Assembly: GCA_003246265.1 (NCBI GenBank)
Contig: QKAU01000034.1
Coordinates: 1-43,748 of the forward strand
Reading direction: 5' to 3'
DNA length: 43,748 bases
Origin: Kiritimatiellales bacterium
GTDB taxonomy: Bacteria > Verrucomicrobiota > Kiritimatiellia > Kiritimatiellales > Pontiellaceae
Position numbers and translations under genes: made by a program. The notes under the pieces are model-generated. The model saw nothing but the letters and a program-made list of their open reading frames with translations. It was not told where the DNA came from and made no database searches. Shown here in pieces: positions 128 to 6,760 of this stretch; positions within the stretch are counted from its first letter, which is position 1; each line of letters begins with the position of its first letter.

Positions 128-215
128 TGGCGGAGGGAGAGGGATTCGAACCCCCGGACGCTTGCGCGTCTCCGGTTTTCAAGACCGGCGCCTTAAACCA
201 CTCGACCATCCCTCC
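128..215 (-). tRNA. tRNA-Ser (anticodon UGA)
   Basis: The minus strand reads as an 88-base class II tRNA. The 7-bp acceptor stem starts GGAGGGA and ends TCCCTCC, followed by a G discriminator and an encoded CCA at 130-128. The anticodon loop is CTTGAAA between CCGGT and ACCGG, giving anticodon TGA, which reads UCA and UCG serine codons. A long variable arm (GACGCGCAAGCGTC) and the T-loop GGTTCGAATCC are both present, as expected for tRNA-Ser. It stands alone; bases 1-127 downstream of it hold no gene that I can support. Confidence 0.96.
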
Positions 216-327: not shown

Positions 328-2526
328 ATGTTGCATCATGCCCCCATCCGATCGCTGCTCCTGCCGGGCCTGCTCCTCCTGGCGGCCGGTTCCCGCGGCC
401 AGTCGGCCGTGCGGTATGTCGACGGCGACTTCCAGGGGGAGAACCCTTCGGGCACATCGTGGCTCAGCGCCTTTGCCGACGTGCAGCAGGCCATCGACGC
501 CGTGGCGGCGGCAGGCGGCGGCGAGGTCTGGGTAAAGGCCGGCATCCACCGCCCGAAGCCCAACGCGGAGCGGACGGGCTTCCTGCTGAAGCCGGGCGTG
601 GCGCTCTACGGCGGCTTCCGGGGCGGGGAAACGGAGCGCGATACACGCAATCCCAAGGCCAACCGGACCGTGCTCAGCGGCGATACGGGCCGGATCGGCA
701 ACGACGACGACAACGCACGGCATGTGCTGGTCGGCGCCTCGCACTGCCGGATCGACGGCTTCACCCTATCCCGCGGCAATGCCGGCGGCATGGAGGCCAC
801 GGCGAACGGCGGCGGACTGCAGCTCCCCGCGGGTTGCACCGACGTCGTGGTGGCCGGCTGCATCTTCGAAAAGTCCATCGCCAAGGTCGGCGGCGGGATC
901 GCCGTCATCGACGCCCAGGTCATGCTGACCAACTGCACCTTCTACGCGAACACCGCCAACTACGGCGGCGCGCTGGCCATGGAGGGCAAGGCGGTGGTGG
1001 ACGTGGTCGACAGCATCTTCACCTCGAACTTCGCCCCGGCCGCCGGCGGCGCCGCGATGGTCAATGCCGGTGCGACCGCCTCCTTCGCCGGCTGCACCTT
1101 CCTCTACAATGCCACCGATGGCGAAGGGGGGGCGATCGCAGCCGAGCGGCTGGGACAGTCCCCCGTGTCGCTGAAGATCGCGGACTGCACCTTCAATGAA
1201 AACCGGGCGCGCACGGCGGGCGGCGCGGTCGCCGTTTCCGGCCCGGTCAGGCCCGTGGTGACCGCCTCCGGCTTCACGGGCAACCTCGCCACCTCGGGGG
1301 CCGGGGCCATCAGCCTGCGTTCCGGCGCCAAGGCCACCCTCGCCGACTGCACCTTCCTGCACAACCGCGGAACCCAGGGGGAGGAAAACGTCGGCGCGGA
1401 TGCCGCATCGCAACTGGTCGACGCCACGGGCAACGCGGAGCTGCTGGCGCAGGCCTTGGCTCCCTCCCCCCAACAGCCGCCGCCCGGGGAGCGGCCGGAA
1501 CCCGCGAAGGAAGCACGGCGGATGCTACCCGACGTCTATGTCCACACGGCCCAGGAGATCAAGGTCAAGCTGCGCAGCGTCGTGGCGGGGAACCCCTTCA
1601 CGGTCGTCGCCCTTGGCGACCTGACCGACCCCGCCTTCATCAAGCACTACCGGACCGTCGAGGCGGCGTCGATCGACTGCCAGGACAAGGTCGGCTTCAT
1701 CTACCTCTACCGCGCGCTCACCCATCCCGGCAACAACGGCTTCGTGCCGCCCTTCACCCAGAAGGAGCGGGCATACCATGCCGTGCTTGCCGCCCGGCTG
1801 CTCCACACCCGGATCCCGTGGTACTGCGACGACCTGGACAACCAGGCCCTCCGGGCCCTCGCGCCGGACGGCAAGGACTCGCTCTTTATCATCGCGAGCG
1901 GCGGCGAAGTGCTCTACGCCGGCCCGGCCGCGAACACCGCCGGTTTCCTCAACGCCCTCGGGAAGGTCGGTGGGAAAAACGTCCGTAAGACCAATCCCAA
2001 TTCGCTGCCCGCCGCCGAAATCGCCCCGACCAGCCTCCGCCAGCCGGTCCATGCGAAACCGCCCCGCACCGGCCCCGGCATCGAGTTCCTCCCACTGCAG
2101 ATTACGCCGCTGGACTCGAAGCTTCCCTACTACGTCAAGCTGCGTGCCGAAGGGGATGCCAGCCTGCTCAAGAACGGGTCGGGCTTCATCCGGCTGATCT
2201 TCAGCATCGACCCCATCTACCGGACGCAGTGGAACAACCTGGGCGAAGGTCTGGGCTATGCCATGAAGCCCTCCACGGGGGCGGTCGCCCCCTCGGTCGG
2301 CAAGGCTCCGCGCATCACGGCGGTGGCCACCGACGACGAGCCGCGCGAATTCCTCCTCGATGCGCGCAAGCTGGACCTCTCCAGGCCGATCCCCCTGCAG
2401 GTCGACTACTCCGTGCATTCGACGGAGGGAAGGCGCAATATCGAGGTGTCGCAGCAGTACCTGGTCTACCTCGAGCACGACCTGTTTGGCGGCACCCTCC
2501 TGGCCAAACCCGCTGCCGGGAAGTAG
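328..2526 (+). CDS. Exported Pmp-like parallel beta-helix protein with deiodinase-like thioredoxin-fold domain
   Basis: This 732-residue protein starts with a signal peptide (LLLPGLLLLAAGS). Residues about 30-360 are a right-handed beta-helix with repeated GGA(I/L/V) and FxxN motifs (CTFYANTAN, CTFLYNA, CTFNENRA, CTFLHNRG), the signature of chlamydial Pmp proteins and related PVC surface proteins. No C-terminal autotransporter barrel follows. Residues about 400-545 instead match the iodothyronine deiodinase/redoxin fold: a GDLTDPAF segment, then VGFIYLYRALTHP, a DDLDN motif and LFIIASGGEVLYAG. The Sec or Cys of the family motif GSCTUPxF is Asp434 here. Residues about 570-730 form a beta-rich domain I do not recognise. 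The start is uncertain: GGAG abuts the ATG at 328, so TTG at 331 is possible. Likely exported and cell-surface or periplasmic; function unknown. Confidence 0.85.
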   Translation: MLHHAPIRSLLLPGLLLLAAGSRGQSAVRYVDGDFQGENPSGTSWLSAFADVQQAIDAVAAAGGGEVWVKAGIHRPKPNAERTGFLLKPGVALYGGFRGGETERDTRNPKANRTVLSGDTGRIGNDDDNARHVLVGASHCRIDGFTLSRGNAGGMEATANGGGLQLPAGCTDVVVAGCIFEKSIAKVGGGIAVIDAQVMLTNCTFYANTANYGGALAMEGKAVVDVVDSIFTSNFAPAAGGAAMVNAGATASFAGCTFLYNATDGEGGAIAAERLGQSPVSLKIADCTFNENRARTAGGAVAVSGPVRPVVTASGFTGNLATSGAGAISLRSGAKATLADCTFLHNRGTQGEENVGADAASQLVDATGNAELLAQALAPSPQQPPPGERPEPAKEARRMLPDVYVHTAQEIKVKLRSVVAGNPFTVVALGDLTDPAFIKHYRTVEAASIDCQDKVGFIYLYRALTHPGNNGFVPPFTQKERAYHAVLAARLLHTRIPWYCDDLDNQALRALAPDGKDSLFIIASGGEVLYAGPAANTAGFLNALGKVGGKNVRKTNPNSLPAAEIAPTSLRQPVHAKPPRTGPGIEFLPLQITPLDSKLPYYVKLRAEGDASLLKNGSGFIRLIFSIDPIYRTQWNNLGEGLGYAMKPSTGAVAPSVGKAPRITAVATDDEPREFLLDARKLDLSRPIPLQVDYSVHSTEGRRNIEVSQQYLVYLEHDLFGGTLLAKPAAGK

Positions 2527-2529
2527 CCC

Positions 2530-3612
2530 CTACTGCGCCCCGTCCACCCGGCGGATCTCCTGCTGGCGGATCGCCTCCTCGTGGATCGACTGCATGAGCT
2601 GCTGCACGAAATCGGCCGACATCGAAAGGGCTTCGCCCCGGCGCACCCGGTCCTGCAGGATCTCCTGCCAGCGGTGCGGCTGGAGCGTCGACACGTTCTG
2701 CTCCGTCTTGATGCGCCCCATCTCGCGGACCACCTCCATGCGGCGGCCCAGCAGTTCCAGCAACTGGCCATCGATCTCGTCGACGCTTTCGCGCAACGCG
2801 CCTAGCTGCTTCGCAAAGTCGACGCTGTCGCTCGATTCGCTGGGCCGAACCAGCCGCGCGACCATCTCGAGGAACCGCGTGGGCGTCAGCTGCTGCGCGG
2901 CGTCGGACAGCGCGCGGGGCGGTTCGGGATGCACCTCTACCATCAGCCCGTCGAAGAGCAGGTCCATCGCCTCCTGCGCGATCGCCGGCACGAGATCGGC
3001 ACGGCCGGCAATGTGGCTGGGGTCGCAGAGGATCGGCAGGTCGGGCATCCGCCGCATCAGTTCGATCGGCATGCGCCAGGCCGGCGCGTTGCGGTAGCGC
3101 ATTTCCAGCGACGAGCCGACGCCGCGGTGGATGGCACCCAGCCGGTCCAGGCCGGCGTTGGCGAGCCGTTCGAGCGCACCGATCCAGAGGCCGATGTCGG
3201 CGCTCATGGGATTCTTGACCAGAACGGGAAGACCGGTGCCGCGCAGGGCTTCGGCCAGGGCTTGTACCGCGAAGGGGCTGGTGGTGGTGCGCGCCCCGAT
3301 CCATACGAGGTCGACGCCCTGCTCCAGGCAGGCCTCGACATGGGCGGGTTCCGCCACCTCGGTGCCGATTTTCAGGCCGGTCGCCTCGCGCGCCTTGGCC
3401 ATCCAGGCCAGGCCCGGCGCGCCGACCCCCTCGAAACCGCCCGGCCGCGTGCGCGGCTTCCAGATGCCGGCCCGGAAAAAACCGATGCCCGAGTCGGCCA
3501 AGGCCCGCGCCGTCTCGAGGACCTGTTCCTCGCTCTCCGCACTGCACGGCCCCGCCGCGAGAAACAGATCGCCTGAGGGCAATCCCCAACCTGAAAACCG
3601 CTTGCCGCCCAT
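2530..3612 (-). CDS. Bifunctional DAHP synthase (type I-beta) / chorismate mutase (AroQ type)
   Basis: The 360-residue product joins two shikimate-pathway enzymes. Residues about 15-260 are a KDO8P-synthase-like DAHP synthase, shown by AAGPCSAES near the N-terminus, the substrate-binding KPRTRP, the conserved KNPMS, the metal-binding CDPSHIAG and the late MVEVHPEP. It condenses phosphoenolpyruvate and erythrose 4-phosphate. Residues about 275-360 are an AroQ-class helical chorismate mutase (LRESVDEIDGQLLELLGRRM, then MGRIKTEQN), converting chorismate to prephenate. This order is known from Bacteroidetes and relatives, where the mutase also serves as an allosteric module; that role is inferred here. 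The start at 3612 is chosen because AAGGAGG lies four bases upstream; an in-frame ATG at 3645 lacks such a site. It is convergent with the preceding gene, only three bases apart. Confidence 0.93.
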   Translation of the reverse strand: MGGKRFSGWGLPSGDLFLAAGPCSAESEEQVLETARALADSGIGFFRAGIWKPRTRPGGFEGVGAPGLAWMAKAREATGLKIGTEVAEPAHVEACLEQGVDLVWIGARTTTSPFAVQALAEALRGTGLPVLVKNPMSADIGLWIGALERLANAGLDRLGAIHRGVGSSLEMRYRNAPAWRMPIELMRRMPDLPILCDPSHIAGRADLVPAIAQEAMDLLFDGLMVEVHPEPPRALSDAAQQLTPTRFLEMVARLVRPSESSDSVDFAKQLGALRESVDEIDGQLLELLGRRMEVVREMGRIKTEQNVSTLQPHRWQEILQDRVRRGEALSMSADFVQQLMQSIHEEAIRQQEIRRVDGAQ

Positions 3613-3698
3613 GCCACCTCCTTGTTGCCAGGGAGATCCTTCCATGTCCGGCCGCTACATGCAACGCCGGGCTGGGAGCGGGTTGCTCCCCGCCGCGG

Positions 3699-6599
3699 TT
3701 ACAGCCACTGTCCGATCTCGAGCAGATTGAGCCATACGCCCCGCCCTTGGCCCGATGCATCGCGGAAGTTCACGACCACCGGGGTCCGGCCATCGCTCTC
3801 GACAACGATCGCCCGGCTGGCAAACGGTTCCCGGTGCATCGCCTCGCCTTCGGTGACGTCGACCGTGCAGATGCCTGACCCCGCCTCGATGGCGATCTGC
3901 CTGGCATAGGGGAGCTTGTAGATTTCGGCGGTCCGCTTCTTTTCCGGATTGGGGTCCATGCTATCGGTGTTGTTCCGCGGCGCGTGGTGGCCCGTGACGA
4001 TCCGGTATCGGCCCGTCGGCAGTCCGGCGAGCTCGAGGACCAGCCCCTTCGGATCCATGCAGAGCACGCCGTCGCCATAGGCAAAGCCGTTCCGCCCCAT
4101 CACGTTCATCTCGCCGAGCCACCGCAGCAGGTCGTCGTTCTCCGCGCACCGCAGGGTGGCCGTGAAACCGCCGAGTTCCGCGAAGGTGCGCGTCGAAGCC
4201 GCGTTGTCGTCCGCGCTCCACGGGATCCAGCCGAACTGGAGCAGCTGGGTGTTGCCGCCGATATCGATGCGCATCCGCTCGAGGTCGTGGATCGGCAAGG
4301 CGGCCGCGGCGATGCGGTCGGGCTGGAATGGTACCGTGCCGAACTCCGCCTGCGCCGGCTCCAGCCCCTCCACCGCCGCGTGGAGCACCACCCGGCCCGG
4401 TTCAGTGCCGGCCCGGACCAGCACCGGCGCGGCCCCGTGGCGCACCAGGGCGGGATTGGCGCCGATCCCCGCGCCGTCTCCCACGATCGATGCCGGGCCT
4501 TCAACGGCGAAGGCGACGGCGCAGGACGGATCCGTGATGACCGTGCCCTGGGCATCGACCACCTCGGCATGCGCCACGACGATGTCGGCGCCATCGGCCA
4601 TGACCGGCCGCTCTCCGATGTCGAGATGCAGCCGCACCGCCGTCGGCGCACCGGGGGTCCGGATGGTTGCCGAAGAGACCACCTGCCCATTGACGAGGCC
4701 ATTGGCCGTGAGGGTGCCGGGCCGGAAATCGTCGATCGCGAAGCGGAAGGGCGGGTGCTTCAGATGTTCGAACCCCGCCTCCCGGCAGGGACCGCCGCGC
4801 TTGTAGGGCCGGCCGTCGAGCAGCAGCTCGACTTCGTCGGCGTTGCTGTAGACCTCGACCGTTTCGACGCCTTCCCGCCATTCCGAATCGATGTGGGTGA
4901 AGGGTTCGGGGAGCCGTTCGGACGGATACCAGGCGGTGCCCGGCTTGGGCCAGCGGAAGAGGGTCGTCATCCCACCGCGGGAGCGGTCGAGCGGATCCTT
5001 GGAGGGGTGGAAGGTGTAGTAGGCATGGGCCGTCCAGGAGATGAGCCCGAGCTTCATCGGGTGGTCGAGCACCTCGTTGACGGCTTCGGGTCCGCGCCCG
5101 CCCTCCATGGCCAGCACGGGTTCCTCCTCCGACCAGTAGTAGGGGCCGTAGACCATCTGCGCGTAGATGTCGGTGATGCCCGAGGTTTGCCAGCCGGTCC
5201 AGCGGCTGCCCTGCGAGGCGGTGAAGCGGGTCGGGTCTTCCTGCTTGCAGGCGTTGTGGATCCGCGCCACCGGTCCCCGGTGGTTGATCCCCGCCCCCCA
5301 GACGATGATGGAGGGATGGTTGCGGTGGTTGCGGACCATGATGCGCGCGGCCTGTTCGAGGTGGTCGAACCAGACGGAGTTGGTGCTGATCGTGATCCAG
5401 GTGGGCGCCTCCTCGTAAACCAGCAGGCCGAGCTCGTCGCACGCGTCGATCAGCGCATCGTCCTGCGGATAGTGCGCGGTACGCAGCACGTTCATGCCGA
5501 GCCGCTTCAGCTGCAGGACATCCTTGAAGTGGAGCGCGTTGGGCAGGGCATCGCCGATGTAGCCGTAGTGCTGGTGGCGGTTCATGCCGACCAGCTTGAC
5601 CGGCTCGCCGTTGAGCAGGAGGCCGTCGCGGTTCGTGATCTCCACCTTGCGGAACCCGATCCGGTTCTCCACGCAGTCGACCGGCCTGCCGGCCACGGCC
5701 ACGAGCGAATTGACGCGGTAGAGGTAGGGGTCGTCGAGCGTCCAGAGGCGGAGGTCCTCCTCGATGCTTCCGATTTGGTCGAAGGTGGCCTCCCGCCCCG
5801 GATCGACGGTTTGGGCATCCACCAGCCTGAGCACCACGACGCCTTCGCGGTCGACCACGCGGGTCGTGAGCGTGGCCTCGCACGGCTCGTCGTATTCGTT
5901 GCGCACCGTGGTCCGCACGCGCACCACGCCGTTGAGGTTGACCGGATCGACCGTCGGCGTGGTGGCGTGGACGCCGGCATCGGGCGCCTCCCAGGGGAAC
6001 GTGACGTGGAGCGGGTCGGTCTCCACCAGGTAGACGTCGCGGTAGAGGCCGCCGAACTTGATGTAGTCGAACGGACCGGGATCCGGAGGAATCACCTCGC
6101 TCTTGCGGTTGTCCACACGCAGCGTCAGCTGGTTCGCCGCCCCGCGGACCACGAAGGCGGTGATGTCGAAATGAAACGGCGAATAGCCGCCGACGTCGAA
6201 GCGGCCGACATGCCGACCATTCACCCACGCATCGGTCGCCTGGTGCGCCCCCTCGAACTCGAGGAAAACCTTCTTTCCGGGCTCCGCGGAAACCCGCAGG
6301 TTCCGGCGATACCAGCCGACTTCGCGCATGAACGTCTCCTGGAACTTGTCGTCTTCGCATCCGTCGAGTCCCAGCGAGGTCAAATGGAGCGTATGCGGCA
6401 GGTGGACGGTCTCCCACGCCGCGTCGTCGAAGTCCTGGGCGAAGAACTCCGCATCCGGGTCGCCGAGATGGAACTTCCAGCCCATGTTGATCGATTCCCG
6501 CGTCCGCGGCGTTGCGGGATACCCCTCCGGCAGCGCTTCCGCGCCCGCCGCGCCGGCCAACGCCATTCCCACCAGCAGCACACGCTTCCATCCATCCAT
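3699..6599 (-). CDS. Exported glycoside hydrolase family 2 protein with atypical acid/base residue
   Basis: This is a 966-residue GH2-type protein (beta-galactosidase/beta-glucuronidase clan). A signal peptide (VLLVGMALAGAAGAEA) is followed by the sugar-binding jelly-roll (VGWYRRNL, GAHQATDAWVNGRHVG, GGLYRDVYL), an immunoglobulin-like domain and a TIM barrel (LVGMNRHQHYG, LRTAHYPQDDALIDACDELGLL), then beta-rich C-terminal domains including a malectin/galactose-binding-like end. In the barrel strand that normally reads WGxxINE or WSLGNE, this protein has WGAGINHRG, so the catalytic acid/base Glu is His440. A candidate nucleophile Glu lies in VLAMEGG. Activity and substrate are therefore uncertain. 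I chose ATG 6599 over 6647 because it places the signal peptide at the N-terminus. No partner polysaccharide gene adjoins it. Confidence 0.88.
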   Translation of the reverse strand: MDGWKRVLLVGMALAGAAGAEALPEGYPATPRTRESINMGWKFHLGDPDAEFFAQDFDDAAWETVHLPHTLHLTSLGLDGCEDDKFQETFMREVGWYRRNLRVSAEPGKKVFLEFEGAHQATDAWVNGRHVGRFDVGGYSPFHFDITAFVVRGAANQLTLRVDNRKSEVIPPDPGPFDYIKFGGLYRDVYLVETDPLHVTFPWEAPDAGVHATTPTVDPVNLNGVVRVRTTVRNEYDEPCEATLTTRVVDREGVVVLRLVDAQTVDPGREATFDQIGSIEEDLRLWTLDDPYLYRVNSLVAVAGRPVDCVENRIGFRKVEITNRDGLLLNGEPVKLVGMNRHQHYGYIGDALPNALHFKDVLQLKRLGMNVLRTAHYPQDDALIDACDELGLLVYEEAPTWITISTNSVWFDHLEQAARIMVRNHRNHPSIIVWGAGINHRGPVARIHNACKQEDPTRFTASQGSRWTGWQTSGITDIYAQMVYGPYYWSEEEPVLAMEGGRGPEAVNEVLDHPMKLGLISWTAHAYYTFHPSKDPLDRSRGGMTTLFRWPKPGTAWYPSERLPEPFTHIDSEWREGVETVEVYSNADEVELLLDGRPYKRGGPCREAGFEHLKHPPFRFAIDDFRPGTLTANGLVNGQVVSSATIRTPGAPTAVRLHLDIGERPVMADGADIVVAHAEVVDAQGTVITDPSCAVAFAVEGPASIVGDGAGIGANPALVRHGAAPVLVRAGTEPGRVVLHAAVEGLEPAQAEFGTVPFQPDRIAAAALPIHDLERMRIDIGGNTQLLQFGWIPWSADDNAASTRTFAELGGFTATLRCAENDDLLRWLGEMNVMGRNGFAYGDGVLCMDPKGLVLELAGLPTGRYRIVTGHHAPRNNTDSMDPNPEKKRTAEIYKLPYARQIAIEAGSGICTVDVTEGEAMHREPFASRAIVVESDGRTPVVVNFRDASGQGRGVWLNLLEIGQWL

Positions 6600-6760
6600 G
6601 GCGCCCCCCGTCCTTCCCTTTGAACCGAAAACCGATAGATACGGCATGCGCCCTGCGATATGAAGAGAAAACGACCCCGCCTTTCGGCCAGTCTACGGCG
6701 GTGCTTGCCGAATCCGGAAGCGGGCTGTAAGGTTTCGCGCATCCAACCGAAAGGATGCCG

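Follow-up and report, generated by a model that had tools for sequence, protein, structure and literature searches.

The window analysed here, positions 1 to 43,748 of contig QKAU01000034.1 of a Kiritimatiellales bacterium, encodes a 732-residue protein (328 to 2,526, plus strand) in which a deiodinase-type thioredoxin domain and the domain behind it have lost all of their redox residues. The most probable reading, to which we give a probability of roughly 0.7 on the basis of sequence comparison and structural models, is that the protein is an exported pseudo-redoxin whose altered domains have been retained as a binding or structural module. Sequence and orthologues give the order of its parts as a signal sequence, a right-handed beta-helix with repeats of the type found in chlamydial Pmp proteins, a deiodinase-like thioredoxin domain, and a DsbD_N-like domain. 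The last 320 residues or so derive from a family widespread in PVC bacteria and Acidobacteriota, in which a thioredoxin domain of the deiodinase/peroxiredoxin type with a CxxU or CxxC site precedes a DsbD_N-like domain with a cysteine pair of its own. Since the four residues of these two centres (two per domain) are replaced in the window protein, the unit would be incapable of thiol or selenol chemistry.

Domain layout and fold of the window protein

The N-terminal signal sequence (residues 1–26, 328 to 405) was recognised by eye; it has no Cys lipobox, and residues 1–25 are unfolded and of low pLDDT in the model. The protein would be exported by means of this signal, and the cell surface, the periplasm, and the medium are equally possible as its destination, neither an autotransporter barrel nor an anchor having been found in it. 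Residues 27–365 (406 to 1,422) form the beta-helix, which is present in the full-length model and is matched by the Pfam families Beta_helix (5.6e-9) and Chlam_PMP (4.2e-5). Both matches lie above the Pfam cut-offs (23.8 versus 20.6 bits for Chlam_PMP), in agreement with the Pmp-like beta-helix of the first-pass annotation, and weak fold matches of the helix were with tailspike and pectate-lyase-type proteins. The helix and its repeats are thus shared with the chlamydial Pmp proteins (PF02415), from which the window protein differs in its C-terminal thioredoxin and DsbD_N-like domains and in that neither an autotransporter barrel nor a Pmp middle domain was among its Pfam matches at E ≤ 1. With a pLDDT of 78.1 and a pTM of 0.52, the full-length model is too weak for the placement of the domains relative to one another.

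The first-pass annotation had proposed a deiodinase-like thioredoxin fold for residues 399–546 (1,522 to 1,965) from the segments GDLTDPAF, VGFIYLYRALTHP, DDLDN, and LFIIASGGEVLYAG, all of which occur in the reading frame as it had written them, and the structure prediction that it suggested has now been made. An AlphaFold model of the domain, based on an alignment of 51 sequences, has a mean pLDDT of 94.9 and a pTM of 0.90. When it was aligned by VIA-align to 999 solved chains, mouse Dio2 (Z 18.3) and mouse Dio3 (Z 18.2) ranked first, with an rmsd of 2.2–2.3 over 152–154 residues, followed by ResA (14.9) and further proteins of the TlpA-like kind with Z no higher than 14.9; in Foldseek, the top matches were the C-terminal domains of DipZ together with Dio3. 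At the level of sequence, the profile NF038285 (“deiodinase family protein”) matches the domain in part (positions 183–322 of 347; E 3.2e-5), with 23.5 bits against a far higher curated cut-off of 250 bits, and among 22 close relatives it has 21 matches (best 1.4e-14). Pfam T4_deiodinase (PF00837) has no match at E ≤ 1 in the window protein itself; it matches 35 of the 66 wider relatives (best 7e-8), one of which (L042) exceeds the cut-off (29.8 versus 27 bits). A PDB sequence search with the domain gave Dio3 as a weak match (E 0.35). The profile matches in the domain and its relatives and the first rank of Dio2 and Dio3 take the assignment beyond chance, and segment 399–546 is confirmed, in its predicted structure, as a deiodinase-type thioredoxin fold.

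The iodothyronine deiodinases (Dio2, 9h48; Dio3, 4tr3) therefore offer the nearest solved fold, and of the pocket and proton-relay residues described for them (PMC11592359), a Thr, a Tyr, a His, a Ser, and a Glu were compared. The G-x-x-T-x-P-x-F motif is shared, as are the invariant Thr433 (1,624 to 1,626), which matches the active-site Thr of the deiodinases, the pocket Tyr461, and the near-invariant His466 (1,723 to 1,725), which corresponds to His202 of Dio3 and His162 of Dio2. The window protein differs in having Asp at the selenocysteine position, Asp431 in place of the relay Ser at −3, and Leu464 in place of the relay Glu (Glu160 in Dio), and in being a bacterial fusion protein that is predicted to be secreted.

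The C-terminal beta-sandwich (residues 586–720, 2,083 to 2,487) was “unrecognised” in the first-pass annotation, a description that no longer holds because the domain can be recognised in the relatives as DsbD_N-like: Pfam DsbD_N (PF11412) matches 7 of the 66 (best 3e-6) and has no match in the window protein. In hhalign, the C-terminal domain of the clade to which the window protein belongs (see below) matches that of the Cys-bearing relatives with an E-value of 1.4e-51, and a comparison with the N-terminal domains of DsbD from Pontiellaceae gave a suggestive probability of 36.9% (E 3.6e-4). A profile of the C-terminal domain by itself retrieved no nDsbD structure from the PDB, and the DsbD_N-like assignment, made on profiles, is a remote one. 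The likeness to DsbD includes the Y..C-x(n)-C motif of the relatives, in which both cysteines are invariant wherever they can be scored (alignment columns C591 and C598), whereas the window protein has His697 (2,416 to 2,418) and Asn704 (2,437 to 2,439) in these columns and no DsbD membrane domain. Both cysteines are missing in all 15 clade members that reach this far. Genuine DsbD proteins keep their cysteine pair in 11 of 11 genomes of the same lineage, so the loss is specific to the domain of this clade rather than general. A thioredoxin domain followed by a beta-sandwich is also found in the C-terminal region of M. tuberculosis DipZ (5cyy, 2hyx), a top or near-top match in Foldseek across both domains, although an overall rmsd of about 13 Å means that the placement of the domains or the sandwich itself differs. 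DipZ is a membrane-anchored protein and has cysteines. Many orthologues of the window protein end in EF-hand-like repeats, a C-terminal pair that is missing from the window copy (2,450 to 2,526).

Loss of the redox residues within a selenoprotein family

A scan of the genomes of 84,980 species, seeded by two peptide patterns and hence liable to miss unusual members, recovered 86 relatives, which belong to Kiritimatiellota, Planctomycetota, Verrucomicrobiota, Acidobacteriota, and several minor groups, and homology across both domains was found by tblastn at 80 loci. Of 117 genomes searched from this genus and family, 17 had matches, and most of these contain an orthologue of the same architecture, at 39–50% identity, plus redox-competent paralogues; a second copy of the family was not found in the window genome.

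The first-pass annotation placed Asp434 (codon GAC, 1,627 to 1,629) at the selenocysteine site, and the selenocysteine or cysteine of the homologues indeed lies exactly in this column. Wherever relatives have an in-frame stop there, it is TGA (39 of 39), directly after GCLT and before P-P-F or a close variant (GCLT-U-PPF), and a further 28 relatives have Cys (GCLTCP). The first Cys of the relatives aligns with Asp431 (1,618 to 1,620), so that they are CxxU or CxxC proteins, whereas the window protein and its clade have DxxD (D431-L-T-D434). The 66 relatives that lie outside the clade have invariant Cys or Sec at both thioredoxin positions and two invariant DsbD_N-like cysteines; in the clade, all four are absent, with the sole exception of Cys431 in L035. 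These alignments strengthen the earlier proposal that the domain is redox-dead, for the resolving Cys has gone too, as has the cysteine pair of the C-terminal domain.

The reading of TGA as selenocysteine in the relatives is taken as real. In three selenoprotein-bearing genomes tested, selA (499–558 bits) and tRNA-Sec (65–71 bits) scored above their cut-offs, and neither did so in any of 11 Pontiellaceae genomes. The hairpin expected of a SECIS element after the TGA codons had a mean z of −0.34 versus +0.16 in the Cys homologues (p 0.005); this direct evidence is weak, and the reading consequently depends on the identity of the codon and the presence of selA and tRNA-Sec. A candidate tRNA-Sec beside the gene (131 to 216) was rejected: its score of 45.2 bits is below the gathering score of 47 bits, and ARAGORN reads it as tRNA-Ser with the anticodon TGA (128 to 215, minus strand). 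The same tRNA-Ser adjoins the orthologues in L009, L010, L028, L029, and L031, and such a near-threshold tRNA could mislead annotation.

The three-part architecture described in the first-pass annotation was found in 16 related genomes and nowhere else among the relatives. These 16 proteins with a Pmp-type beta-helix, all from Pontiellaceae/Kiritimatiellales, have intact frames and are 39–53% identical, and all 16 have lost both redox centres. In a tree from which the motif columns were left out, a branch supported at 100/99 separates them from all the others. Beta-helix and Pmp matches are lacking in all 66 relatives outside this clade, whose N-termini consist of EF-hands (45 of the 66 have EF-hands), Lcl_C, or a short leader alone. 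Since the redox losses all fall within one clade, they represent one event or a few rather than 16. The deepest member (L035, 6,714 to 9,098) has GCLTEP, that is, Cys431 and Glu434, and lacks the DsbD_N-like cysteines. The change to Asp at position 431 thus probably followed the loss of position 434 and of the second cysteine pair, an order that depends on this one intermediate and on the root of the tree.

Within the clade, 15 of 16 members have Asp at position 431, encoded by GAT in some and by GAC in others, and it is from this retention across codons that the site is judged to be constrained. Position 434 is less conserved (Asp in 13 of 16, with His, Ala, and Glu in the others), so that there is no strict requirement for DxxD as a whole.

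Bacterial deiodinase-like proteins with Sec or Cys have been known since Zhang et al. (2005, PMC1088965), and a redox function was proposed for them. They belong to the same thioredoxin family (NF038285), and the window protein differs from them in having neither Sec nor Cys and in its fusion to a beta-helix; no description of a Pmp-type fusion or of a DxxD form was found in the open-licence literature. A 2026 review of prokaryotic selenoproteins lists the deiodinase-like family as UxxC (PMC13188914), whereas the relatives here are CxxU, and the review has no entry as such for the CxxU form joined to a DsbD_N-like domain. The present analysis uncovers a widespread planctomycete family of deiodinase-like plus DsbD_N-like proteins that is absent in that form from the catalogue. 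Its CxxU members (GCLT-TGA-PPF) occupy 39 loci among L041–L106 (e.g., L042, L050, and L090) in planctomycetes and acidobacteria, frequently with EF-hands. CxxU, CxxC, and DxxD form a natural series in one alignable family, and with the intermediate C-L-T-E of L035 it allows the loss of selenocysteine, the loss of redox function, and the gain of a new role to be studied stepwise.

Possible roles of the altered domains

In the working members of the family, the thioredoxin site is probably coupled with the DsbD_N-like cysteine pair, as DsbD would suggest by analogy, and electrons would probably move from one domain to the other or be handed to a partner, for example DsbD. In one Pontiellaceae lineage, the pair was fused behind a Pmp-type beta-helix, CxxU or CxxC gave way to DxxD, and the DsbD_N-like cysteine pair disappeared, while both folds and the remainder of the deiodinase pocket (Thr433, Tyr461, and His466) were kept, as sequence and model show, and Asp431 was held through synonymous changes. 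The product would most likely be a rigid binding or structural module with an acidic pocket, carried by the beta-helix. On this reading, the clade is one more lineage where a selenoprotein-family domain was repurposed instead of being deleted. A further and more tentative step, which we consider possible but doubtful, is that, in one Kiritimatiellota lineage, a two-centre selenol/thiol relay (the CxxU or CxxC site and the DsbD_N-like cysteine pair) was converted as a unit into a non-redox module on a Pmp-type beta-helix, with DxxD selected as a metal-binding or recognition site within the former active-site pocket.

Somewhat less likely than this conversion is that DxxD constitutes a new site for a divalent cation such as Ca2+ at the N-terminus of the first thioredoxin helix, by which the module would act as a metal-dependent switch. 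The frequency of Asp at both positions, with synonymous codon variation, would fit such a site, as would the Ca2+-binding EF-hands of many orthologues and wider relatives; however, two members have His or Ala at position 434 and a third has Glu, and the window copy lacks EF-hands.

An improbable explanation is that the domains are a decaying relic, with the redox use lost and the fold persisting just because it lies within a secreted beta-helix protein. The clade does average 0.9 Cys in the region as against 4.7 in the relatives, and the window genome has no other copy of the family, but 16 intact frames at this level of divergence, 38 invariant columns, and the constancy of Asp431 point to strong purifying selection. 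Slightly less probable still is a non-thiol chemistry, for example, acid–base or hydrolytic, with Asp431, Asp434, and His466 possibly acting on sugars that the beta-helix might present. In its favour, the pocket residues are kept and the helix weakly resembles folds of the tailspike and pectate-lyase type, yet two clade members have Arg or Tyr in place of His466, and we know of no hydrolase that uses such a site. The binding or structural module thus remains the preferred reading.

Genomic surroundings

Conserved neighbours gave no functional clue, neither a binding partner nor an operon partner of the window protein was found, and no plasmid record had the domain pair. Downstream of the gene, open reading frames resembling DAHP synthase/chorismate mutase (2,530 to 3,645, minus strand) and glycoside hydrolase family 2 (3,699 to 6,647, minus strand) were recognised by eye. 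All 11 loci with redox-competent paralogues of the GCLTCPEY type (L051, L054, L055, L061, L063, L066, L071, L072, L073, L076, and L081) have a Cys-type sulfatase signature within 8 kb, as do 1 of 12 loci of the Pmp-fused clade and 5 of 39 Sec loci. In L055, the sulfatase and the paralogue are within the same 1368-residue open reading frame.
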